DNA of 64,000 bases from Motilibacter rhizosphaerae (lineage in GTDB: Bacteria; Actinomycetota; Actinomycetes; Motilibacterales; Motilibacteraceae): contig NZ_SGXD01000001.1 in NCBI RefSeq assembly GCF_004216915.1, forward strand, positions 248,001-312,000, in the 5' to 3' direction. Of the stretch, positions 16,935-30,101 are shown in pieces. A model generated the notes under the pieces. It was given only the letters and a program-made list of their open reading frames with translations. It searched no databases and was not told the DNA's origin. Within the stretch, counting starts at the first letter, position 1. Each line of letters opens with the position of its first letter. The translations under genes and the position numbers were made by a program.

Positions 16935-19118
16935 TCAGGCCAGGACGCGCTCCCGCTCCTCCGGCACGTACGGCTCGTCGGCCGGCTCGACCGACAGGTG
17001 CGGCAGGCGGCGGTCCAGCCACGCGGGGAGGTACCAGTTGGACGTGCCGAACAGGTGCATGACCGCCGGGACGAGCACGGTGCGGATGACGAACGCGTCG
17101 ATGAGCACGGCGGAGGCGAGGCCGACGCCGAACTCGGCGATGACGCGCTGCCCGCCGAACACGAACGACACGAACACGCAGATCATGATCGTCGCGGCTG
17201 CGGTGATGACACGGCCGGTGGTCGCCTGGCCCATGGTGACGGCGCGGGCGTTGTCCCGCGTGTGCACCCACTCCTCGTGCATGCGGCTGACGAGGAACAC
17301 CTGGTAGTCCATCGAGAGCCCGAACAGCAGCGACAGCATGATGACCGGCAGGAACGCCTCGACCGGACCGGAGCCTCCGAGACCGAGGGCGTCGGAGCCC
17401 CAGCCCCACTGGAAGAACGCCACGACGACACCGAAGGATGCCGCTGCTCCCAGCAGGTTCATGACCGCTGCGGTCGCTGGCACGAGCAGGCTGCGGAAGG
17501 CCACGAGCAGCAGCAGGAAGCCGAGCCCGACGATGACACCGACGAACAGCGGCAGCTTGCCGGTGAGCACACCGGCGAAGTCGTCGAAGATCGCGGTCAC
17601 GCCGCCGACGTAGACCTTGGCGCTCGTCCCCTCGACCGCTGCCGGGATGACATGGTGGCGCAGCCGCGAGATGAGCTGGCTCGTCGCCTCGGCCTGTGGC
17701 GCGGACGTCGGCACCACCGAGATGATCTCGGTCGTGGCACCGGGCTTCGAGGGCAGCAGCGCCGCGGCCGCGACGCCCTTCTCGGTGGTCAGCTGCTTCG
17801 CGAGGGAGGCGACCGCCTGGCGGTCCTGGTCGGTCCGCACCTGCGCGACGAGCTGGAGCGGGCCGTTGGAGCCCGGGCCGAAGCCCTCGGCCAGCAGGTC
17901 GTACGCCTTGCGCGTCGTCGTCCCCGAGGGGTCGTTCCCGGCGTCGGAGCTGCCGAGGCGCAGCGAGGCGAACGGCACGATCAGCACGGCCATGACGAGG
18001 ACGGCGAGCAGGGCGAGCGGCGCGGGCCGGCGCTGCACGCGGTCGGCCCAGCGGCGCCAGGCACCCGTCGAGCCCTCCGGGTGCGGACCCTCCGCCGCGA
18101 GGCGCCGCCGCTCGCGGCGCGACAGCACGCGCGTCCCGAGGAAGCCGAGCAGCGCCGGCAGCAGGGTGACGGAGGCCAGGACGGTGAAGAGCACCGCGAC
18201 CGCGGCCCCGATGCCCATGCCGTTGAGGAAGCTGACGCCCAGCACGAGCAGGCCGAGCAGGGCGATGCAGACGGTGGCGCCGGCGAAGAGCACCGCGCGC
18301 CCCGAGGTGTCGAGCGCCCGGACCACCGACTCCTCGACGGGGATGCCCTCCTTGAGCCCGTTGCGGTGCCGGGTCACGATGAACAGCGCGTAGTCGATGC
18401 CGACGCCGAGCCCGATGAGCGCGGCGAGCGTGGGCGCGATCGTGCCGATGGTGACCACGTGCGACGCGAGCCCGACGACCATGAGGCCGACGCCGAGGGC
18501 GACGACTGCGGTGAGCAGCGGCAGGAACATCGCGAACAGCGAGCCGAAGGCCACGAACAGCACGACCGCGGCGGCGAGCACGCCGATGGCCTCCGTGCTC
18601 GAGGTCGGCTGCTGGTTGAGCTGCTGCACCGCGTTGCCGCCGAGCTCGACCTGGAGGCCGCTGCCGCGAACCGACTGCGCGATGTCGACGACCTGGCGCA
18701 CATCGTCCAGCGGCAGGTCCGGCACCTGCTGGGCGAAGTCCACCGTCGCATACGCGGTGCGCCCGTCCCGGCTCACCTGCGCCGCGCCCTGCTCCGAGTA
18801 CGGGCTGGTGACGGACGCGACGCCGTCGCTCGTGGCGACGCGGTCGAGCATGGCGGTGGCCCGCTCGCGCACCCCTGGATCCGTCACCTTCCCGGACGCG
18901 ACGTGGAGGACGATCGTGTCGGACTCGCCGGCCTGCGCGGGGAGGCTGGCCTGCAGCAGGTCCAGCGCCTTGGTCGACTCGGTGCCGGGCAGGCTGAAGC
19001 TGTCGTTGTACGCGGTGCCGACCGTCTTGCTCAGCACGCCGAGCACGACGAGCGCGAGCACCCACGCCGACGCGACGACGAAGCGGTGCCGGTAGCACCA
19101 GCGGGCGAGGGGAGCCAC
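16935..19118 (-). CDS. MMPL/RND-family transporter
   Basis: Integral membrane exporter of 727 residues. It has two homologous halves, each with one transmembrane helix, a large extracytoplasmic loop (about 35-175 and 385-510) and five more helices, giving 12 segments. The functional Asp-Tyr pairs of the MMPL family appear as GVGIDYALFIVTRHR in the first half and GLSMDYQVFLVSRMHEEW in the second. Such proteins export lipids, siderophores or drugs using the proton gradient. The GTG start at 19118 has GGAGG 5 nt upstream. It directly follows the tetR gene on the same strand, so TetR probably represses it. Substrate is unknown; the size is typical of actinobacterial MMPL drug/lipid exporters. Confidence 0.92.
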   Translation of the reverse strand: MAPLARWCYRHRFVVASAWVLALVVLGVLSKTVGTAYNDSFSLPGTESTKALDLLQASLPAQAGESDTIVLHVASGKVTDPGVRERATAMLDRVATSDGVASVTSPYSEQGAAQVSRDGRTAYATVDFAQQVPDLPLDDVRQVVDIAQSVRGSGLQVELGGNAVQQLNQQPTSSTEAIGVLAAAVVLFVAFGSLFAMFLPLLTAVVALGVGLMVVGLASHVVTIGTIAPTLAALIGLGVGIDYALFIVTRHRNGLKEGIPVEESVVRALDTSGRAVLFAGATVCIALLGLLVLGVSFLNGMGIGAAVAVLFTVLASVTLLPALLGFLGTRVLSRRERRRLAAEGPHPEGSTGAWRRWADRVQRRPAPLALLAVLVMAVLIVPFASLRLGSSDAGNDPSGTTTRKAYDLLAEGFGPGSNGPLQLVAQVRTDQDRQAVASLAKQLTTEKGVAAAALLPSKPGATTEIISVVPTSAPQAEATSQLISRLRHHVIPAAVEGTSAKVYVGGVTAIFDDFAGVLTGKLPLFVGVIVGLGFLLLLVAFRSLLVPATAAVMNLLGAAASFGVVVAFFQWGWGSDALGLGGSGPVEAFLPVIMLSLLFGLSMDYQVFLVSRMHEEWVHTRDNARAVTMGQATTGRVITAAATIMICVFVSFVFGGQRVIAEFGVGLASAVLIDAFVIRTVLVPAVMHLFGTSNWYLPAWLDRRLPHLSVEPADEPYVPEERERVLA

Positions 19119-19188
19119 GGGACCTCCACGTGCAGCGGGAGCTCCGCGCCGGGCGGCGGGAGCGGGTGCTGCGGCGCTGCAGCGGGAC

Positions 19189-19222
19189 GAGCGGGTCTGG
19201 CGGTCGAGCGGGTCTGGCGGTC
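19189..19222. repeat. Two perfect 17-bp tandem copies
   Basis: GAGCGGGTCTGGCGGTC occurs twice back to back in the tetR-mmpL spacer; the second copy ends on the first base of the tetR stop codon. It is probably a slippage duplication, with no sign of function. Confidence 0.8.
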
Positions 19223-19848
19223 TAGCGGGTGTCGCGGTCGAGCAGTCCCTGCGCCAGCAGGTCGCACGCCTCGGTGACGACGGAGAGGAGCGGTTCTGAG
19301 CGGCGTGCCGCGTGCCAGTGCAGGACAGCGGTCGGCAGCGCGGCCATGAACGCCGCCGCGAGCAGCGCGGGCGCGAGGTCCGTGGGCTGCGCGCCGGTGC
19401 GGCGGGCGAGCTCGGCCACCACGCGGTCCTGGACGGCGACGAACGACGCCAGCTGCTCGCTGACGAGCCCCGGGACCTCGGCGGCGAGCAGCACCGCCTC
19501 CACCCACTCGGGGTCCGGGTCCGGGGTGCCGGGCTGGAGCACGGCCTCGCCGAAGGCCCCGAGCAGCGCCGCCCGGAGGGGCTCGCCCGCGGGCCGCGCG
19601 CGGAGGGCCTCGACGAAGCGCTCGGCCCGCTCGGGCAGCGGCGCGAGGACCGCCTGCTCCTTGCTCGCGAAGTAGTTGTGGAAGGTCCGCGCCGACACCC
19701 CCGCAGCCTCGGCGACCTCCTCGACGGTGAGGAGGACGGCGCCGCGCTCGCGGACGAGGCGCTGGGCAGCCGCGGTGATCGCCGCCCGCGTGGCCGCCTT
19801 CTTCTGCTCGCGCAGGCCCAGGAGGCCGGTGGCAGCAGGTGGGAGCAC
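19222..19848 (-). CDS. TetR-family transcriptional regulator
   Basis: A 208-residue repressor. The N-terminal helix-turn-helix is clear (about 13-60): KKAATRAAITAAAQRLV, LTVEEVAEAAGVSARTFHNYF, then ASKEQAVLAPL. The C-terminal ligand/dimer domain is variable, as usual. The GTG start at 19848 has no strong ribosome site but fits the domain. It lies immediately upstream of the MMPL gene on the same strand. A perfect palindrome (TTGCAG-AGC-CTGCAA) lies 22 nt before its start. Together these suggest an autoregulated repressor controlling the exporter. The inducer is unknown. Confidence 0.88.
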   Translation of the reverse strand: MLPPAATGLLGLREQKKAATRAAITAAAQRLVRERGAVLLTVEEVAEAAGVSARTFHNYFASKEQAVLAPLPERAERFVEALRARPAGEPLRAALLGAFGEAVLQPGTPDPDPEWVEAVLLAAEVPGLVSEQLASFVAVQDRVVAELARRTGAQPTDLAPALLAAAFMAALPTAVLHWHAARRSEPLLSVVTEACDLLAQGLLDRDTR

Positions 19849-19869
19849 CCGAGGAGCGTCGCAGAGATC

Positions 19870-19884
19870 TTGCAGAGCCTGCAA
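19870..19884. promoter_or_regulatory. Candidate TetR operator
   Basis: TTGCAG-AGC-CTGCAA is a perfect 15-bp palindrome 22 nt upstream of the tetR start. Size, symmetry and position match TetR-family operators and would give autoregulation of tetR-mmpL. Confidence 0.6.
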
Positions 19885-19932
19885 CTTTCCTGAGCGCCCG
19901 CTGAGCACCGGCTGATGGCGCACTGAGAGGAC

Positions 19933-19989
19933 CCCGACGTTGTGGGGCTCATTGGGGGTTATCACGCGAACCAGCCCCACGACGTCGGG
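19933..19989. repeat. 17-bp inverted repeat, divergent region
   Basis: CCCGACGTTGTGGGGCT and AGCCCCACGACGTCGGG are complementary at 16 of 17 positions and are separated by 23 nt. They lie between the divergent tetR and the gene at 20015, so a simple convergent terminator is not expected. The repeat could be a cruciform, a second operator, or a 5' leader hairpin of the small membrane gene. Confidence 0.6.
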
Positions 19990-20014
19990 AGCGGGGCTGG
20001 CTACGGTGGACCGC

Positions 20015-20317
20015 ATGCGCATCCCCACCGCTGCGATCACGGCAGGCTCCCTCGTCGGCGGCTGGCAGGCGGCGCGGCAGACCGGCGTACGGCCGCTCGG
20101 CGGCGTCGTGCTGGCCGCGGGCGGGGTGCTCGCCGGGCGGGAGTGGGCGCGCACGGTCGGCCCGGTGGCGACCGGCGCGCTGGTGGCGACCTACGTCGGG
20201 GCGTTCGGCCTCTCGCACCCGCTCGCGAAGCGCATCGGCGCCTGGCCCTCGGTGCTGGTCGTCGCCGGCATCACCGCCGGAGCGTCGTACGCGGTCGCGG
20301 ACCGCCGCGCCGCCTGA
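20015..20317 (+). CDS. Small glycine/alanine-rich membrane protein, unknown
   Basis: A 100-residue protein with three to four short hydrophobic segments (about 5-17, 27-40, 49-67, 78-94) separated by single Arg or Lys residues; little else is visible. I do not recognise the family. The ATG at 20015 is used; a GTG nine bases upstream (20006) is equally possible. Neither has a strong ribosome site. The 5' flank contains the long inverted repeat at 19933-19989. The gene is followed after 23 nt by the TRIC-type channel gene on the same strand, suggesting a two-gene unit. Confidence 0.55.
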   Translation: MRIPTAAITAGSLVGGWQAARQTGVRPLGGVVLAAGGVLAGREWARTVGPVATGALVATYVGAFGLSHPLAKRIGAWPSVLVVAGITAGASYAVADRRAA

Positions 20318-20976: not shown

Positions 20977-21008
20977 CGGGGCGTCCGCAGGACGGGAGCG
21001 GCGCTGGG

Positions 21009-21079
21009 AGCGGGTGACGGGAATCGAACCCGCACTGTCAGCTTGGGAAGCTGATGTTCTGCCATTGAACTACACCCGC
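21009..21079 (-). tRNA. tRNA-Gly (anticodon CCC)
   Basis: A 71-nt cloverleaf on the minus strand: acceptor stem GCGGGTG/CACCCGC, anticodon arm TCAGC-TTCCCAA-GCTGA reading codon GGG, and T arm with GGTTCGATTCC. The discriminator is T, and CCA is not encoded. A -10-like TAGCAT lies about 33 nt upstream (21112-21117, minus strand). Confidence 0.93.
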
Positions 21080-21152
21080 CGGCCGCCGGCGCAGGCCGGC
21101 GGACCGCGGCCATGCTAGCCCATCGCGTGAGCCGACCGGAGCACGAGCGGGC

Positions 21153-21974
21153 TCAGCTCGTGACGTCCTTGCGGAGGAAGCGCCACCAGGCGAGGGCGAG
21201 GAGGACCGCGGCGTACGCGATGCTGACGAACGCCCCGCGCACCATGCTGCCGGTCTGCGCGGTCTCCGACAGCAGCCCGAGGAACGCGACCGAGTAGTGC
21301 GTCGGCAGGCCCGCGCGCAGGTCCCCGAGCGCGCTGATCTGGTCGAGGATGTTCGACAGGATCGTGATGAGCACGGCGCCGCCGACCGCGCCGAGCGGGG
21401 CGTCGGTGCAGACCGAGAGCAGGAAGGCGAGCGCGCCGATGCTGAGCAGGCTCACCAGGACGTACGCGACGACGCCGAGCAGCCGGACCAGCCCCACGCC
21501 GGCGGGCAGCTGACCGCCCGCGGGCAGCGAGAGCGGGTGCCAGCCGTAGCGGGCGGTGCCGACGACGAGCGCGACGGTGAGCAGCAGGGCGGCGGTCGCG
21601 ACCGACCAGACGAGCGCGGCGACGAGCTTGACGCCGAGCAGGCGGGCGCGCGGGACGGGCGCGGCGAGCAGGTAGCGCAGCGAGCCCCAGCTCGCCTCGC
21701 TCGCCACCGTGTCGCCGCAGAACAGCGCCACCGCCACGACGAGCAGGAACCCCGAGGCGACGAACAGGGCGAAGAAGGCGAAGTCCGTCCCGGACGACGT
21801 CGCGAGCCGGGCGAGCTGGGCGAACTGGTCCGCCGCGCTGTCGCTCGGTCGGCCGCCGAGCTCGAGCGCGGCCATGAGCAGGACCGGCAGCAGCCCGAGC
21901 AGGCCGAGGGTGAGCTGGGTGCGCCGCCGCCCGGCCTGCCGGACGAACTCGGTGCGCAGCGTGAGCGACCTCAC
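21153..21974 (-). CDS. ABC transporter permease (ABC-2 type)
   Basis: A 273-residue membrane protein with six hydrophobic segments (about 20-36, 68-88, 112-135, 160-188, 195-215 and 245-262), the plan of ABC-2 exporters. The motif GDTVASEASWGSLRYLLAAPVPRARLL after helix 2 is the conserved coupling region that meets the ATPase. The GTG start at 21974 overlaps the stop of the upstream hydrolase-ATPase fusion by 3 nt in a GTGA context, so the two are translated together and probably form one exporter. The substrate is unknown. The protein ends FLRKDVTS. The tRNA gene follows after about 70 nt. Confidence 0.88.
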   Translation of the reverse strand: MRSLTLRTEFVRQAGRRRTQLTLGLLGLLPVLLMAALELGGRPSDSAADQFAQLARLATSSGTDFAFFALFVASGFLLVVAVALFCGDTVASEASWGSLRYLLAAPVPRARLLGVKLVAALVWSVATAALLLTVALVVGTARYGWHPLSLPAGGQLPAGVGLVRLLGVVAYVLVSLLSIGALAFLLSVCTDAPLGAVGGAVLITILSNILDQISALGDLRAGLPTHYSVAFLGLLSETAQTGSMVRGAFVSIAYAAVLLALAWWRFLRKDVTS

Positions 21975-24742
21975 CGGTCCCCGCTCCCCCGGGTGTCGCC
22001 GCCGACGAGCGCGAGGAACGCGTCCTCGAGCCGGCGGCGCGGCTGCACGCGGCGCACGCCGACGCCGGCCTCGACCAGCGCCGCCACGACCAGCGCCACA
22101 GGGCGGCCCGCCGTCTCGACCACCAGCTCGTCCTCCTCGTCGCTCCAGACCAGCCCCAGCCCGTCGAGCACCTGCCCGGCCCGCGCGCCGTCGTCGACGT
22201 CGAGCAGGACGGTCGGCGAGTCGCCGACGAGCTCCTCGACCGTCCCGGAGGCCACGACCTCGCCGCGGTTCATCACGACGACGTCGGTGCACATCTGCTC
22301 CACCTCCGCCAGCAGGTGGCTCGACACGAGGACGGCGCGGCCCTCCCGCGCGTAGTCGCGCAGCACCTGGCGCATGGCCGCGATCTGCGGCGGGTCGAGC
22401 CCGTCCGTCGGCTCGTCGAGGACGAGCAGCTCGGGCAGCCCGAGCATGGCCTGCGCGATCGCGAGGCGCTGGCGCATGCCGTGGGAGTACTTGCCCGTCC
22501 GCCGCTCGACCGCGGCGCCGAGGCCGGCGATGGCCAGCGCCTCCTCCATCCGGGCCTCCGCGGCGGGACGGCCGGTGGAGCGCCAGTAGAGCTCGAGGTT
22601 GCGCCGTCCCGACAGGTGCGGCAGGAAGCCCGGGCCCTCGACCAGCGCACCCACCCGCTCGAGGACCGGCGCGCCCGGCACCAGCCGCTGGCCGAAGACC
22701 AGCACCTCGCCGCGCGTCGGCCGGGTCAGCCCCATGAGCATGCGCAGCGTGGTCGTCTTGCCGGCGCCGTTGGGCCCGAGCAGCCCCACCACCCGCTCGC
22801 GGGGGACCGCGAAGTCGACGCGCGCGGCCGCGACGAAGCCGTCGGCGTACTCCTTGCGCAGCCCGCGGACCACGAGCGGCACGTCGCTGGCGGCCTCGTC
22901 GACCGGGCGCGCCGCGAGCCGCTGCCGGCGCCGGGCGAGCAGCACGGCGAGGGCGACGGCCAGCGCGAGGGCAGCGACGAGGACGAGCAGGGCGATCCGC
23001 CAGCCCCGGCCTCCGGCCGGCAGCGCGTGCGCGTCCACGGTCGGCAGGGCGACCGGCCCGTCGACCGCGACCGTGTAGGTGCGCGGGTCGGTCGGGCCGA
23101 GGTGCGCCTGGTCGGAGGTGGCGATGGTGAGCCGCAGGCGGTGCCCCGCCGCGAACCGGTACGCGACGGCCGGCAGCCGCACCTGCACCGGCCGCGCGTC
23201 GGCGAGCGAGCGCGGCAGGCCGGTGAGGCGCACGGGCGCGACCAGGCCCTGCGGCAGGACCGCCCGGCCGTTGACCTTCGAGGGGTCCACGTCGTACAGC
23301 GCGAGGTAGAGCACCGCGTCACCCGTCGGCGAGGCGACGCGCACGCGAACGGTCGGCGCGCCGACCGCGGTCACCGAGCGGGCGAGCGGCGCGGACTCGA
23401 CGTCAGCGTGCTGGCCGGGCACCGCGAGCGTGAAGCTGCCGGTGAACGCGCCGAGCCCGCCGGCGAGCGGGAGGCTGGTGATCGCCGACGGCGTGCCGCG
23501 CGGCGGGCTGGCGATCTGCGCGCTCCTCGTGGGCAGGGCGACGTCCACCCGGCCGGTGCCGTCGGTGCCCGGGTCCCCGGCCACGGCGTACGCGGTGGAG
23601 GCGTTGCCGCTCGCGGCGGTCTCGTCGATGCCGCTGACCCTCGAGAACGTGAAGCCCGTGGACGGCGTCGGACCCTCGCCGCGCAGGTAGTGGTCGAGCC
23701 ACCGGTCGGTGAGGCTGGTCACGCGCTCCTGGTCGTCGCGGGTCCCGTCGCCGGCGTCGTGGCCGCCCGTGAACCAGAAGACCTGCACCGGCGTACCGGT
23801 CGCGGCGATCTCCCGCGCGTTGGCCGCACCCTCGTCCAGCGGGAAGAGGCTGTCGCCCTCGCCCTGGATGACGAGCGTCGGGGCGGTGATGCGGGAGGTG
23901 ACCGTGCGCGGGCTGCTCCGCGCGAGGATCGCGTCGGTCGCCGCGGTGGCCCGGCCAGTGACGGCGAGCTCCTGGTACGCCGCGCAGACGTCGGCGGCGA
24001 AGCGGCCGCACCCCGGGCTCCCGGCCGGCGTGCCGCTGGGGAGGACCGGGCTGGGCGTCGGGGTCGAGCCCGTGGTCAGCCCCGAGGTCAGGTCGCCCGA
24101 CCCGGCGCCGAACAGCAGCCCCGCCCACTGCGACTTGAAGACGCCCGGCGCCGCGCCGTCCGCGTGGTTCGGCAGGAGCGCGCGGCCGAGGTCGTTCCAC
24201 GTGATCGACGGGACGATCGCGTCGATCCGGTGGTCGGTCCCGGCCGCGAGCAGGGAGACGGCACCGCCGTAGGACCCGCCGACGACCGCGACGACGGGGT
24301 CGCCGCCGCGCTTCGCGATGTCCGGGCGCGCCGCCAGCCGGTCGATGAGCCGGGAGACGTCCTTCGCCTCCCAGTCGATGCTGTCGAGGTGGATCTGGCC
24401 GCCGGACCGGCCGAAGCCCTCGGCGGTCCAGGTCAGCACGGCGTAGCCCCGCCGCACGAGGTGCCGGGCGTCGCCGGACTCGCTGAGCTTCGTGCCGCCG
24501 AAGCCGTGCGCGAGCAGCACCGCCGGGACGGGGGAGGCGGCCGAAGCGCCGTCCGGCAGGTAGAGCCGAGTGTCGAGGTCGACCGGCGTGCGCCCGTCCG
24601 GGCCGGTCAGCACGCGGACGGTCGCGTCCTGGGTGCGGTAGCCCGGGCCGCGGTGCCCGACGAGCACGAGGACGGCCGCGACCACGACGACCAGCACCAG
24701 GGCAGCGGCGAGCCACCGTCGTCGCCCGCGCAGCAGCCCCAT
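21971..24742 (-). CDS. Fusion: membrane-anchored alpha/beta hydrolase (X-Pro-peptidase/CocE type) with ABC-transporter ATPase
   Basis: A 923-residue two-enzyme polypeptide. An N-terminal transmembrane helix (9-28) precedes an alpha/beta hydrolase (40-355) with HGFGG, nucleophile S157 in GGSYGG, D297 in GEGDSLF and H328 in GGHDAGDG. A beta-sandwich like the C-terminal domain of X-Pro dipeptidyl peptidases and CocE esterases follows (400-565), then a second transmembrane helix (582-603) and a complete ABC ATPase (620-920). The ATPase has Walker A GPNGAGKT (656-663), signature YSHGMRQRL, Walker B LLVLDEPTDG and the switch His in VSSHLL. The helices imply that the hydrolase faces outside and the ATPase faces the cytosol. 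The permease is encoded directly downstream with overlap. Such fusions occur in some actinomycetes; the biological role is not known to me. Confidence 0.9.
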   Translation of the reverse strand: MGLLRGRRRWLAAALVLVVVVAAVLVLVGHRGPGYRTQDATVRVLTGPDGRTPVDLDTRLYLPDGASAASPVPAVLLAHGFGGTKLSESGDARHLVRRGYAVLTWTAEGFGRSGGQIHLDSIDWEAKDVSRLIDRLAARPDIAKRGGDPVVAVVGGSYGGAVSLLAAGTDHRIDAIVPSITWNDLGRALLPNHADGAAPGVFKSQWAGLLFGAGSGDLTSGLTTGSTPTPSPVLPSGTPAGSPGCGRFAADVCAAYQELAVTGRATAATDAILARSSPRTVTSRITAPTLVIQGEGDSLFPLDEGAANAREIAATGTPVQVFWFTGGHDAGDGTRDDQERVTSLTDRWLDHYLRGEGPTPSTGFTFSRVSGIDETAASGNASTAYAVAGDPGTDGTGRVDVALPTRSAQIASPPRGTPSAITSLPLAGGLGAFTGSFTLAVPGQHADVESAPLARSVTAVGAPTVRVRVASPTGDAVLYLALYDVDPSKVNGRAVLPQGLVAPVRLTGLPRSLADARPVQVRLPAVAYRFAAGHRLRLTIATSDQAHLGPTDPRTYTVAVDGPVALPTVDAHALPAGGRGWRIALLVLVAALALAVALAVLLARRRQRLAARPVDEAASDVPLVVRGLRKEYADGFVAAARVDFAVPRERVVGLLGPNGAGKTTTLRMLMGLTRPTRGEVLVFGQRLVPGAPVLERVGALVEGPGFLPHLSGRRNLELYWRSTGRPAAEARMEEALAIAGLGAAVERRTGKYSHGMRQRLAIAQAMLGLPELLVLDEPTDGLDPPQIAAMRQVLRDYAREGRAVLVSSHLLAEVEQMCTDVVVMNRGEVVASGTVEELVGDSPTVLLDVDDGARAGQVLDGLGLVWSDEEDELVVETAGRPVALVVAALVEAGVGVRRVQPRRRLEDAFLALVGGDTRGSGDR

Positions 24743-25837: not shown

Positions 25838-26467
25838 GTGGACCGCAGCGGCTGGCAGGGCGTGCGCGACGAGGCCGAGCTCCGCGCCGTCGTCGGTGAG
25901 CCGGTCCCCCGCGTGGCGGAGAAGGTCCGGCGCTCGCTGCACCCGATCGACAGGGCGTGGCTGGCCGCCTCCCCGCTGTGCCTGCTCGCCACGACCGCGG
26001 CCGACGGCTCGGTCGACGTGAGCCCCAAGGGCGACCCGCCGGGCGTCGCGCACGTGCTGGACGAGCGGACCCTCGTGCTGCCCGACCGGCCCGGCAACAA
26101 GCGGGTCGACGGCTTCCGCAACGTCCTGCAGGACCCGAACGTGGGCATGATCTTCGTCATCCCCGGCCGCGGTGACTCGCTGCGCGTCAACGGCCGCGCG
26201 GAGCTCCTCCGCGACGCGCCGTTCTTCGACGACCTCGTCGTGCGCGGCAACCGCCCGGCGCTCGCCCTCGTCGTCCACGTGGACGAGGTGTTCTACCACT
26301 GCTCCAAGGCCTTCCTGCGGTCCCGTACGTGGGAGCCCGGGTCCTGGCAGCCGGGAGCGGCACCGAGCAGACCCGTCATCGCGAAGGCGCTGGAGCGGCC
26401 CGACACCCCGCTCGCCGAGCTCGAGGCCTACTACGGCCCGACCTACGCCGACCGGCTGTACGGGTGA
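25838..26467 (+). CDS. Pyridoxamine 5'-phosphate oxidase-family flavoprotein
   Basis: A 209-residue PPOX-like split-barrel protein that probably binds FMN or F420. Recognisable blocks are IDRAWLAASPLCLLATTAADGSVDVSPKGDPPG, LPDRPGNKRVDGFRNVLQDPNVGMIFVIPGRGDSLRVNGRA, VHVDEVFYHCSKAFLRS and the C-terminal LAELEAYYGPTYADRLYG, given here in pieces of the conserved order. The run DRPGNKR with nearby NV is the flavin-phosphate region of the MSMEG_1061-type subfamily. The GTG start at 25838 has GAGGAGG about 6 nt upstream. No cognate substrate is evident. Confidence 0.86.
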   Translation: MDRSGWQGVRDEAELRAVVGEPVPRVAEKVRRSLHPIDRAWLAASPLCLLATTAADGSVDVSPKGDPPGVAHVLDERTLVLPDRPGNKRVDGFRNVLQDPNVGMIFVIPGRGDSLRVNGRAELLRDAPFFDDLVVRGNRPALALVVHVDEVFYHCSKAFLRSRTWEPGSWQPGAAPSRPVIAKALERPDTPLAELEAYYGPTYADRLYG

Positions 26468-26537
26468 GCGCGGGGTAGTCGATCACGCAACAGGGGCACC
26501 CTCCGGTCCTGACGCCACGACTCCCGGAGGAGACCGC

Positions 26538-27401
26538 ATGAGCGGCCTGCTGCACGACCGCCTGACGAAGGGCGACCGCCTCGAGGTACTGCGCGGGCCT
26601 GGTACGCGGGGCTTCCCCCTCGTCCGCCACCGCGACACCTCGCCGCTGCTGCACCGCCACGCCTGGGTGGTCGCGCTCGCCGCCGGGGCGCTGCTCTACC
26701 TCATCGTCGAGCGCGCCCTCGTCGACACCGGCAACGTCAACTTCGTCCCGTCGCTGATCCTGCTCGGCGCGCTCGTCGTGCCCGTCGCGTTCGTGACCTT
26801 CGTGCACGGCCGGTCCGCGACGTGGTCGGTGTCGCTGCCGGTCCTGCTGGTGGCCGCGGTGTTCGGCGGGGTCGTGGGGACGGTCACGGCCGGCCTGTTC
26901 GAGTACGACACGGTCCGCAAGCTCGGCGTCCTGCCGACGCTCGGCATCGGGCTCATCGAGGAGTCCGCGAAGCTCGTGGTGCCGCTGCTGCTGCTCATGC
27001 TCGGCACGCGCATCGCCGGCCGCAGCAACGGGCTGATGGTCGGGGTCACGGTCGGCATGGCGTTCGCCGCGCTCGAGACCATGGGCTACGCCTTCACCGC
27101 GCTGCTCCAGACGCAGGGCGACCTCGGGGCGGTCGACCAGGTCCTGCTCCTCCGCGGCCTGCTCTCGCCGGCGGGGCACGCAGCATGGACGGGCCTCGCC
27201 TGTGCCGCGCTCTACCGGCGTCCCGTCGAGCCGCGCTACTCGCTGTGGCGGTTCGTCGCCACCTTCGCGCTCGTCGTCGTCCTGCACGGCCTGTGGGACA
27301 GCAGGTCCGACTGGTGGTGGTACCTCGGCGTCGGCGCCGTCAGCCTCGGCCTGCTGGCGCTCGAGGCCCGGCGCGGGCTGCGCGAGCCGGCGCGTACCTG
27401 A
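26538..27401 (+). CDS. PrsW-family intramembrane metalloprotease
   Basis: A 287-residue membrane protein with about eight helices. The PrsW/CPBP-like catalytic pattern is visible: GLIEESAKLVVPL (paired Glu), FAALETMGYAF (Glu-Thr) and VVLHGLWD (His near the C-terminus). Known PrsW cleaves an anti-sigma factor within the membrane, but no sigma/anti-sigma pair is adjacent here. The ATG at 26538 has GGAGGA 6 nt upstream. The gene is preceded by 70 nt without coding and followed by an ABC exporter operon with a 48-nt gap. The substrate is unknown. Confidence 0.87.
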   Translation: MSGLLHDRLTKGDRLEVLRGPGTRGFPLVRHRDTSPLLHRHAWVVALAAGALLYLIVERALVDTGNVNFVPSLILLGALVVPVAFVTFVHGRSATWSVSLPVLLVAAVFGGVVGTVTAGLFEYDTVRKLGVLPTLGIGLIEESAKLVVPLLLLMLGTRIAGRSNGLMVGVTVGMAFAALETMGYAFTALLQTQGDLGAVDQVLLLRGLLSPAGHAAWTGLACAALYRRPVEPRYSLWRFVATFALVVVLHGLWDSRSDWWWYLGVGAVSLGLLALEARRGLREPART

Positions 27402-27449: not shown

Positions 27450-28478
27450 GTGGCGCTGATCGAGGTACGCGACCTCACGAAGGAGTTCGTCCGGCCCAAG
27501 CGGGTCGAGGGGCGCTTCGGCACGCTGCGCACCCTGGTCACGCGCGAAGTCGTGCGCACGAGCGCTGTCTCCGGGGTGAGCTTCGACGTCGACGAGGGCG
27601 AGGTCGTGGGCTACCTCGGGCCCAACGGCGCCGGCAAGTCGACGACCATCAAGCTGCTGACCGGGATCCTCACTCCCACCTCCGGGACGGTCGCGGTGCA
27701 CGGTCCCCTCGGGACCGTCGTGCCGTGGCGCGACCGGGAGCGCAACGCGCGCCAGGTCGGCGTGGTCTTCGGGCAGCGCTCGCAGCTCTGGTGGGACCTG
27801 CCGCTCGTGGAGTCGCTCCGGCTGGTGGCCGCGCTCTACGACGTGCCGGACGAGCGCTACCGCCGCAACCGCGACCGGCTGGTCGACCTGCTCGACATGG
27901 GCTCGTTCCTCGACACCCCGGTGCGACAGCTCTCCCTGGGGCAGCGCATGCGCGGCGACCTGGCGGCGGCGCTGCTCTACGAGCCGCCGATCCTCTACCT
28001 CGACGAGCCGACGGTCGGACTCGACGTGCTGGCGAAGCAGACTGTGCGGCAGTTCGTGGCCGAGGCCAACGAGATCTCGCGCACCACCGTGATGCTCACG
28101 ACCCACGACCTCGAGGACGTCGAGCGGCTCTGCCGGCGGATCGTGCTCATCGACCGGGGCACGGTGCTCTACGACGGCAGCGTGGACGGCCTGATCGCGA
28201 GGTACGCGCCCTTCCGCGAGGTGCTCGTCACGCCCGACACCTCGTCCGCCAAGGCCGCGCTGCCCGGTGAGGTCTGGGAGCTCGGGGGTGCGGTCGGGAC
28301 CCGCGACGGGGATGCCTGGCGCTTCCGCATCGGCCGGGACGAACCGGTTCACGCGCTCATCACGGCGGTCACCGCCGCGTACCCGGTGCGGGACGTGCGC
28401 GTCGTCGACGCGAGCCTCGAGACCGTCATGACCGAGCTGTACGCGGAGCGCCGGGTCCCCTCCGAGGTCGCGACGTGA
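27450..28478 (+). CDS. ABC-2 exporter ATP-binding protein
   Basis: Cytosolic ATPase of 342 residues with Walker A GPNGAGKST, Q-loop region GVVFGQRSQLWWDLP, signature LSLGQRMRGDLAAALLY, Walker B ILYLDEPTVGLD and switch His in LTTHDLEDVE. Residues 1-40 form a longer-than-usual N-terminus including KRVEGRFGTLRTL, and the C-terminal 90 residues are the regulatory extension found in NatA/DrrA-like ATPases. QLWWDLP is characteristic of the subgroup that partners with two DUF990-type permeases, which are exactly the next two genes. The GTG start at 27450 follows a weak ribosome site. The end overlaps the permease start by 4 nt (GTGA). Confidence 0.92.
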   Translation: MALIEVRDLTKEFVRPKRVEGRFGTLRTLVTREVVRTSAVSGVSFDVDEGEVVGYLGPNGAGKSTTIKLLTGILTPTSGTVAVHGPLGTVVPWRDRERNARQVGVVFGQRSQLWWDLPLVESLRLVAALYDVPDERYRRNRDRLVDLLDMGSFLDTPVRQLSLGQRMRGDLAAALLYEPPILYLDEPTVGLDVLAKQTVRQFVAEANEISRTTVMLTTHDLEDVERLCRRIVLIDRGTVLYDGSVDGLIARYAPFREVLVTPDTSSAKAALPGEVWELGGAVGTRDGDAWRFRIGRDEPVHALITAVTAAYPVRDVRVVDASLETVMTELYAERRVPSEVAT

Positions 28479-29266
28479 GCGGCTACCTCGCCATGGTGCG
28501 CATCGGCGCGAAGCTCCTGCTGCAGTACCGCGTGATGGTCTTCGTCATGGTCGGGCTGTCACTCGTGCAGGTCCTCGTGCTGACCCGCGTGTGGCACGCG
28601 GTCTACAGCGGGCGCGCCGAGGTGGGCGGACTCCCGCTGCGCGAGACGATCGTCTACCTGACGCTGACGAACCTGCAGGCGGGGCTGCTCATGCCGTCGT
28701 CGGTGGACTTCCTCATCGGCCTGCGGATCCGTACGGGCCACGTCGTCTTCGACGTCTCCCGGCCCTACGGCTACGTCGGGCAGATGGTCGCGATGTCCGG
28801 GGGCCGCCAGCTCGCGGTCCTCGCCTTCATGCTGCTCGGCGCCCCTCTCGGCTTCTGGATCGGCGGGATCTCCGCCCCGCACTCCGCGGGGGCAGCTGTC
28901 GCGTACGCCGTGGCGCTCGCCGTCGCCTGGGCGATCTACGCGCAGGTCAGCGTCCTCGTCGGGCTCAGCGCCTTCTGGTTGACCGAAGCGCAGGGGATGG
29001 GCGTGATCGCGCACCTCGTCGGGACGTTCCTCGCCGGAACCGCTGTGCCGCTGGTGTTCTTCCCCGGGTGGCTGCGTGCCGTCGCGCACGCCTCGCCGTT
29101 CCCGTTCCTCGGCTACGTGCCGGCGTCGATCTACCTCGGGCGCATCTCGGGCCCCGCAGTGCTGGGCAACCTCGTGCTGGGCGCGGTCTGGGTCGCGGTC
29201 CTCGCCGGGATCCTCGCGCTCGCGTGGCGCCGGACGTTCTCCCGGGTGGTGTCGCAGGGTGGCTGA
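28475..29266 (+). CDS. ABC-2 exporter permease 1
   Basis: A 263-residue membrane protein with about six helices (positions about 15-35, 55-75, 105-125, 140-160, 170-195, 230-250). The GTG start at 28475 overlaps the ATPase stop. The sequence LRIRTGHVVFDVSRPYGY between helices 2 and 3 is the conserved coupling segment seen in ABC-2 permeases of the DUF990 group. VPLVFFPGWLRAVAHASPFPFLGYVPASIYLG near the C-terminus is the other hallmark, shared in part with the next gene. Works with permease 2 as a heterodimer. The substrate is unknown. Confidence 0.9.
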   Translation: MSGYLAMVRIGAKLLLQYRVMVFVMVGLSLVQVLVLTRVWHAVYSGRAEVGGLPLRETIVYLTLTNLQAGLLMPSSVDFLIGLRIRTGHVVFDVSRPYGYVGQMVAMSGGRQLAVLAFMLLGAPLGFWIGGISAPHSAGAAVAYAVALAVAWAIYAQVSVLVGLSAFWLTEAQGMGVIAHLVGTFLAGTAVPLVFFPGWLRAVAHASPFPFLGYVPASIYLGRISGPAVLGNLVLGAVWVAVLAGILALAWRRTFSRVVSQGG

Positions 29267-30101
29267 GGTCGCCGATCCCCCTGTCGGCAACCGCATCCGT
29301 CGCTGGCTCCGGCTCTACGTCGCCCTGCACGGCGCCTCCCTGCGTGGCGCACTGCAGTACCGCGCGAACACCTTCCTCATGATGCTCGTCGGGATCGTCT
29401 ACCAGGGCAGCGGTCTCGCGTCGCTGTGGGTCGTGCTGCACGCCTTCGACTCGCTCGGTGGTTGGACGATGTCGAGCGTCGCATTCCTCTACGGCATCAG
29501 GCTGCTCGCGCACGCGCTGTCGCTCGTCATCGTCGGTGGCAACGTCATGCTCGACGAGACTGTCCGCACGGGCGAGTTCGACCGCATCCTGCTGCGGCCG
29601 TGGAACCCGCTCATGCTGTCCATCACCTCCCGGCGCGGGCTCGAGTGGGTCGGCGACCTCTCCGTCGGCATCATCACGTTCGGTGCCGCTGCCGTCATCG
29701 CGCCGGTGGACTGGTCGTTGGTGCAGGCACTGTTCTGCGTGCTGGCGGTCGTCGGAGGCGCGTGCATCGAGGCCGCCTTCGGCGTGCTCGCGTCGTCGCT
29801 GGCCTTCCGCGTCGTCGACACGTGGGCCATCCGCTGGTTCGTCGACGACACGGTGACGACGCTCGCGACCTACCCGCAAGGGATCTTCAGCGCCGGAGCC
29901 CAGCGGGTGCTGACGTACGCCATCCCCGTGGCCTTCATCGCGTACCTGCCCTCGAGCGTGCTGCTGGACCGGGAAGGGCGGCTGGCGGTGCCGGCCACGC
30001 TCGCGTACCTCTCCCCGGTCGTGGGGGTCGGGCTCTTCGCGCTCGCGACCGCGGTGTGGCACCGCAGCGTGCGCTGGTACGCGAGCGCGGGCGGAGCCTG
30101 A
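29259..30101 (+). CDS. ABC-2 exporter permease 2
   Basis: A 280-residue membrane protein with about six helices, homologous in plan to the preceding permease. The GTG at 29259 overlaps the previous gene by 8 nt. The opening LRLYVALHGASLRGALQYRANTFLMMLVGIVY, here in part, is typical of the DUF990 family. The coupling loop is VRTGEFDRILLRPWNPLML and the end motif is IPVAFIAYLPSSVLLDRE. It closes the exporter unit begun at 27450. Its stop overlaps the DUF1992 gene by one base. The cargo cannot be guessed; homologous systems include daunorubicin-type and lipid exporters. Confidence 0.9.
   Translation: MAEVADPPVGNRIRRWLRLYVALHGASLRGALQYRANTFLMMLVGIVYQGSGLASLWVVLHAFDSLGGWTMSSVAFLYGIRLLAHALSLVIVGGNVMLDETVRTGEFDRILLRPWNPLMLSITSRRGLEWVGDLSVGIITFGAAAVIAPVDWSLVQALFCVLAVVGGACIEAAFGVLASSLAFRVVDTWAIRWFVDDTVTTLATYPQGIFSAGAQRVLTYAIPVAFIAYLPSSVLLDREGRLAVPATLAYLSPVVGVGLFALATAVWHRSVRWYASAGGA

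Follow-up and report, generated by a model that had tools for sequence, protein, structure and literature searches.

This study concerns a two-gene cassette of Motilibacter rhizosphaerae in a stretch of 64,000 nucleotides (nt) from contig NZ_SGXD01000001.1 (assembly GCF_004216915.1, positions 248,001 to 312,000), referred to here as the window, whose own numbering is used throughout. The larger gene lies on the minus strand, where a single open frame (923 codons and a stop) runs from 24742 down to 21971, and it encodes a protein in which an α/β hydrolase is joined to an ATPase of the ATP-binding cassette (ABC) type; the plus strand across it holds only an antisense shadow frame. Its extent is supported by the open frame, the Pfam matches and full-length homologues. 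A preliminary description of the window had located this gene correctly at 21971-24742 but omitted the strand, and had put its overlap with the permease gene at 3 nt. As the permease starts with the GTG at 21974, the overlap is 4 nt (21971-21974, GTGA). The permease gene (21153-21974, minus strand) encodes a protein of 273 amino acids (aa) of the ABC-2 type, matching PF12679 (ABC2_membrane_2) with 40.2 bits against a gathering score of 27.2. A scan for promoters and terminators returned 0 and 0 sites, although such a scan is uninformative for high-GC actinobacteria.

The fusion protein is ordered as transmembrane helix, CocE/NonD-type α/β hydrolase with jelly roll, second transmembrane helix and complete ABC ATPase, all encoded on the minus strand. 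The first helix (residues 6-35, 24638-24727) and the second (residues 578-606, 22925-23011) reach peak 19-residue Kyte-Doolittle means of 3.22 and 3.18, respectively, and bracket the hydrolase and jelly roll. The hydrolase (residues 35-360, 23663-24640) contains a Peptidase_S15 match at 50-300, the triad S157 (in GGSYG), D297 and H328, and a cysteine pair, C245 and C253; it was delimited by Pfam, motifs, structure model, fold search and alignment. The jelly roll (residues 361-572, 23027-23662) is marked by a PepX_C match at 449-555, and the matches to the lipase PaL and to CocE extend to about residue 570. In the ATPase (residues 621-915, 21998-22882), which was assigned by Pfam (ABC_tran, 641-779), motifs, fold search and alignment, we found a Walker A motif from 656, the signature YSHGM at 752-756, Walker B at 772-777, a D-loop and the H-loop histidine H809. 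Each Pfam match exceeds its gathering score. For structure prediction, 29 fused proteins were picked by hit rank and aligned, and the AlphaFold2 model based on these homologues has a mean predicted local distance difference test score (pLDDT) of 86.6 and a predicted template modelling score (pTM) of 0.65. It contains a helix at 3-29, the hydrolase, the beta domain, a helix at 579-610 and the ATPase, and leaves the relative placement of the domains unfixed. Catalytic residues, hydropathy and Pfam thus agree with the preliminary description, which had recognised a complete hydrolase with its triad, two flanking helices and a complete ABC ATPase in one protein.

The same domain order is widespread in actinobacteria, where the preliminary description had proposed to look for it. 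In a profile search at E ≤ 1e-200, the full-length fusion was found in 43 of 197 sampled genomes of the class, far beyond chance; among the matches listed it spans 13 families, and each listed match starts at or before position 24 and ends at or after position 806 of the 900-position profile. A sample of 296 genomes of the phylum gave 22 matches at E ≤ 1e-120, of which 10 are fusions outside the class and 2 are ATPases only. In the family labelled f19, matches at E ≤ 1e-150 occur in 87 of 101 genomes, of which three show fragments only. This family is taken to be the Streptomycetaceae, because the Streptomyces records L061-L063 carry the fusion and one of these three clusters in the tree with a genome of f19. 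In a family with genomes of 0.9-2.2 Mb, 12 of 61 genomes carry the fusion, two by fragments. When genome contigs were scanned with ATPase patterns, 77 of 80 loci matched over the ATPase part alone and three Streptomyces loci contained the fusion. Within the window's own family, the fusion is present in the window's genome and missing from the other four of the five genomes sampled. In a genome of the same genus (G001), read by eye, a dihydropteroate synthase-like gene stands behind the rhodanese gene where the window has the cassette, and in the window a tRNA-Gly (ccc) gene (21005-21080, minus strand) lies directly downstream of the permease at the cassette end. From these three observations we conclude that the cassette is accessory in this family; since the rhodanese gene of G001 has no cassette beside it, the cassette may have arrived by insertion near the tRNA-Gly.

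The permease is the constant partner of the fusion protein. A homologue was found just downstream on the same strand in 65 of 66 fused loci (65 fetched loci and the window) and in all ten fused loci from other classes, giving 75 of 76 and bearing out the permease partnership that had been described for the window. The single locus without it (L202) is explained by its contig of 4,178 bases, on which the fusion frame has its 3' end at base 3, so that the permease's place is cut off. In the RefSeq record of Tsukamurella, the fusion is annotated as a single coding sequence with the same 4-nt overlap, and the two genes are named "alpha/beta fold hydrolase" and "ABC transporter permease". No neighbour other than the permease is general across the 66 loci, in which frames of at least 80 aa were compared after a crude gene filter by codon G+C content; the next groups reach at most 10 loci, and one group in 18 loci was read as an antisense shadow of the permease and set aside. 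This fits a self-contained, broad function better than a cluster-specific one, and a cluster-specific substrate was rejected on these grounds. There is likewise no sign of a second permease: in the window, the tRNA-Gly and a Gly_transporter gene follow downstream, and no second neighbour family is general among the 66 loci. The pairwise divergences of the parts are correlated (hydrolase-ATPase 0.80, hydrolase-permease 0.73, ATPase-permease 0.76), and none of 999 permutations gave values as high, as would be expected for parts inherited together, with a contribution from shared species descent.

Both active sites are conserved. In the 42 fused proteins used for residue counts, which are those of the hydrolase tree described below, the S-D-H triad and the checked positions of Walker A, signature, Walker B and H-loop are invariant. 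S-Y-G at the nucleophile elbow occurs in 36 of 36 proteins, 34 of them fused, and the PepX_C jelly roll in 29 of 29 members. Sequence conservation differs along the chain, with a mean identity among the 29 aligned proteins of 27-30% in the linker and helix 2, 52% in the hydrolase and 70% in the ATPase core. Exactly two ectodomain cysteines (245 and 253) are found in 28 of these 29 proteins and none in the remaining one; in the larger set the pair is present in 41 of 42, and the sole protein without it (L195, 6466-9108, minus strand) has lost both. Disulphides as a rule form outside the cytoplasm. A pair that is kept or lost jointly is as expected of a disulphide and supports an extracytoplasmic hydrolase, although it is no hallmark of the fusion, since the alignment shows it in 20 of 20 stand-alone hydrolases and it therefore marks the wider hydrolase family.

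The positively charged N-terminal flank (29 of 29 aligned proteins), the two strong predicted hydrophobic helices and the cysteine pair together uphold the earlier proposal that the hydrolase lies outside and the ATPase inside. As the flank behind helix 2 lacks a consistent positive charge, the second half of this topology rests mostly on the requirement that the ATPase be inside, and some homologues may cleave helix 1 off as a signal peptide. An internal start from which the ATPase is expressed separately had been named as an observation that would speak against a joined protein, and is not favoured. In the window, the GTG codons 621 and 624 lack a Shine-Dalgarno-like motif at the usual spacing, and by a simple scan only 4 of the 29 aligned proteins have such a start, so that internal starts at the hydrolase-ATPase junction do not appear to be conserved.

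With respect to the hydrolase, the preliminary description had left peptide and ester hydrolysis side by side, and the comparison with known families favours the ester side. The ectodomain passes the CocE/NonD model TIGR00976 (70.9 bits, cut-off 66.3; the Tsukamurella homologue reaches 107.2 bits) and fails the Xaa-Pro dipeptidyl-peptidase model NF003780 (30.1 bits against a cut-off of 642). By sequence profile as well as by fold, the closest solved structure is the lipase PaL (8yzn; profile E 4.8e-34; Z 32.9 over 448 residues at 24% identity), followed in the fold search by cocaine esterase (Z up to 27.9) and X-prolyl dipeptidyl aminopeptidases (Z 26-27). For these reasons an esterase or lipase appears to be the safer guess than a peptidase; the peptide assignment is weakly based and a true X-Pro peptidase is unsupported by the models. 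With the CocE/NonD hydrolases and PaL (MEROPS S15 fold) the fusion protein shares the α/β hydrolase with jelly roll, the S-D-H triad and GxSYG. These known hydrolases are soluble or secreted enzymes, whereas the fusion protein continues at its C-terminus into a membrane helix and an ABC ATPase. CocE uses the side chain of Tyr44 in its oxyanion hole; the putatively equivalent loop of the hydrolase here is HGFGG, which has no tyrosine.

The ATPase is closest to subfamily models of drug and peptide exporters, namely drrA (9.8e-52) and lantibiotic protection (3.7e-47). Structurally it resembles TM0544, NosF (Z 28.6, 292 residues aligned) and ABCA ATPases, and the ATPase part of the profile also matches the ATPases of ABCA phospholipid transporters, which rank at the top. 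LanFEG ATPases carry Glu in place of the Q-loop Gln ("E-loop"), and the corresponding E702 is found in 41 of 42 fused proteins. This residue was rejected as a hallmark of the fusion because 21 of 21 unfused ATPases carry it too. The cassette is similar to ABC-2 exporters of the DrrAB and LanFEG type in its ATPase and in its 273-aa ABC-2 permease, but it has one permease gene rather than LanE plus LanG. Furthermore, the known ATPase subunits of this type are soluble cytosolic proteins, whereas in the cassette this subunit is anchored through a helix and bears an ectoenzyme.

To place the fusion among its relatives, a hydrolase tree was built from sequences chosen by hand for spread: 31 of the 65 fetched fused loci together with the window, all 10 fused loci found in other classes, and 20 of the 28 stand-alone hydrolases. 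This quick, unrooted tree of 62 domains places the 42 fused and the 20 stand-alone hydrolases on opposite sides of a single branch with a Shimodaira-Hasegawa-like approximate likelihood ratio test (SH-aLRT) support of 99, so that the fusion may have been either gained once or lost once. Two unfused ATPases of the same phylum fall inside the fused group of the ATPase tree, with a weak local support of 0.556, and strict monophyly of the fused ATPases was rejected. Both belong to ATPase and permease pairs (L240, 1005-2749; L241, 5305-7289) with no hydrolase match in the fetched stretch, and their ATPases are 57-59% identical to the fused core. These pairs are possible progenitors or secondary losses.

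The architecture of the cassette, that is the domain order, the catalytic and ATPase residues, the permease partnership and the joint divergence, is well supported. On this basis we favour, at somewhat less than even chances, a self-contained ABC-2 exporter that would expel and cleave a membrane-active ester or peptide. The products of the two genes would form one membrane complex, in which two fusion chains provide the two ATPase subunits and two permeases the pore; either half would then carry, outside the membrane, a serine esterase or lipase of the CocE/NonD kind. Powered by ATP hydrolysis on the inner side, the pump would push out a compound (ester, lipid or peptide) that is hydrophobic or embedded in the membrane, and its tethered hydrolase would cut the emerging compound and thereby block its re-insertion; the overall role would be that of a detoxification or self-protection pump. 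A 2+2 stoichiometry is usual for ABC-2 exporters; for the cassette we infer it, as we do the outward direction, the identity of the substrate and the action of the hydrolase on the exported molecule, which the preliminary description had suggested to be processing or sensing. Several observations weigh against such a pump. By profile score the ATPase lies under both named subfamily cut-offs (176.1 bits against 312.45 for the DrrA model TIGR01188; 160.9 against 309.75 for the LanF model TIGR03740), no regulatory gene is conserved beside the cassette, and no substrate or phenotype is tied to it. The near-universal presence in family f19 also fits a housekeeping role in the envelope. In addition, the unfused pairs L240 and L241 indicate that the pump half can exist alone, and stand-alone hydrolases occur without a pump, as 28 of 28 loci lack a related permease in the fetched stretch.

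The pairing of a hydrolase with an exporter has a published precedent in nisin resistance. The fold of the NSR protease differs from that of the cassette hydrolase. NSR is a membrane-associated serine protease that cuts nisin and is encoded with the ABC exporter NsrFP, while LanFEG exporters expel lantibiotics from the membrane (PMC5786555); NsrFP is of the BceAB type (PMC5583591). NSR/NsrFP and the cassette would be alike in combining a serine hydrolase outside the cytoplasm with an ABC expeller (PMC5786555). NSR and NsrFP are, however, separate polypeptides, and by analogy they are a precedent for the pairing rather than for the fusion. A protease and an ABC exporter do share one chain in the peptidase-containing ABC transporters (PCAT), in which the C39 peptidase is a cytosolic cysteine protease, in contrast to the serine hydrolase predicted outside the membrane here.

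Other readings of the same architecture have to be considered. The pump could export an acylated or leader-bearing product, such as an envelope lipid or a peptide, from which the hydrolase strips a protecting group outside. The lipase-like ectodomain, the match to ABCA phospholipid-transporter ATPases and the near-universal presence in f19, which would suit a housekeeping product, are consistent with such a maturation role, but no biosynthetic or precursor gene is general beside the cassette in the 66 loci (frames of at least 80 aa), and the cassette is present in the window's genome while missing from its four sampled family members; we consider this reading unlikely. It is also rather unlikely that there is little or no transport and that each ATP cycle, through a pull on the tethered helices, turns the outer hydrolase on or off, as in FtsEX, which controls cell-wall hydrolases (PMC10694151, PMC6705773). 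An ABC system inside would in both cases govern a hydrolase outside (PMC10694151, PMC6705773). The hydrolase under FtsEX control is not fused to the ATPase, unlike that of the cassette. The folds of transporter and enzyme also differ between the two systems. The covalent connection of hydrolase and ATPase through helix 2 would suit such mechanical coupling, as would the resemblance to NosF of NosDFY, a system that couples ATP to an extracytoplasmic partner. Yet the linker and helix 2 are among the least conserved parts, the permease is of the ordinary ABC-2 type, and unfused relatives of the pump exist.

An improbable alternative is that the fusion serves anchoring only, with a secreted scavenging esterase tethered by chance to an unrelated pump and both activities independent. 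The stand-alone homologues with the same triad and cysteine pair (20 of 20) agree with this, but the separation of fused and stand-alone hydrolases by a single branch and the persistence of the fusion, whose two active sites are intact in all 42 proteins, suggest selection that keeps the halves together. An artefact, in which a frameshift or an assembly error joined two genes, is hardly conceivable in view of the full-length frames in many independent genomes, and nothing that speaks for it was found; chance or sequencing fusion was ruled out by the 43 full-length copies in 197 genomes and the single coding sequence in the Tsukamurella RefSeq record with its 4-nt overlap.

Further membrane-related genes were noted in the window. 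The stretch 16935-20154 (minus strand) holds an MMPL-family transporter gene (PF03176, 322 bits), preceded on the same strand by a gene for a TetR-type regulator; the two are likely a regulated lipid or drug exporter pair. A second ABC-2 system, separate from the fusion cassette, occupies 27450-30101 on the plus strand and consists of an ATPase gene (27450-28478), an ABC2_membrane_6 permease gene (28475-29266, with a 4-nt overlap) and a second permease frame, read by eye, that ends at 30101. Just before it, at 26400-27401 (plus strand), a PrsW-type intramembrane metalloprotease is encoded (PF13367, 92.4 bits).

In searches of the open PubMed Central (PMC) literature aimed at the hydrolase-ABC ATPase fusion, and in others aimed at PaL, we found no description of it, and the passages of PMC11878206 that discuss S15 name none. 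Both halves are of known kinds; as far as these searches tell, the two have not been described in this order within a single membrane-spanning chain. The domain combination is plain from Pfam and may be listed in domain databases. Because at least one homologue is named only "alpha/beta fold hydrolase" in RefSeq, the pump function can escape searches by gene name. The cassette could represent a distinct class of ABC exporter whose ATPase subunits are each anchored in the membrane and bifunctional, with the ATPase inside and a serine esterase outside, and in which expulsion and destruction of a membrane-active compound are coupled as a near-core part of the intrinsic resistance of Streptomyces-like actinobacteria, a proposal we regard as possible but doubtful. 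The cassette merits interest as a widespread, intact and simple two-gene system. If the proposed function is true, a common pump of antibiotic-producing bacteria would combine efflux with enzymatic inactivation in a single polypeptide that spans the membrane. This would bear on intrinsic drug resistance and on the use of tethered ectodomains by ABC-2 exporters.

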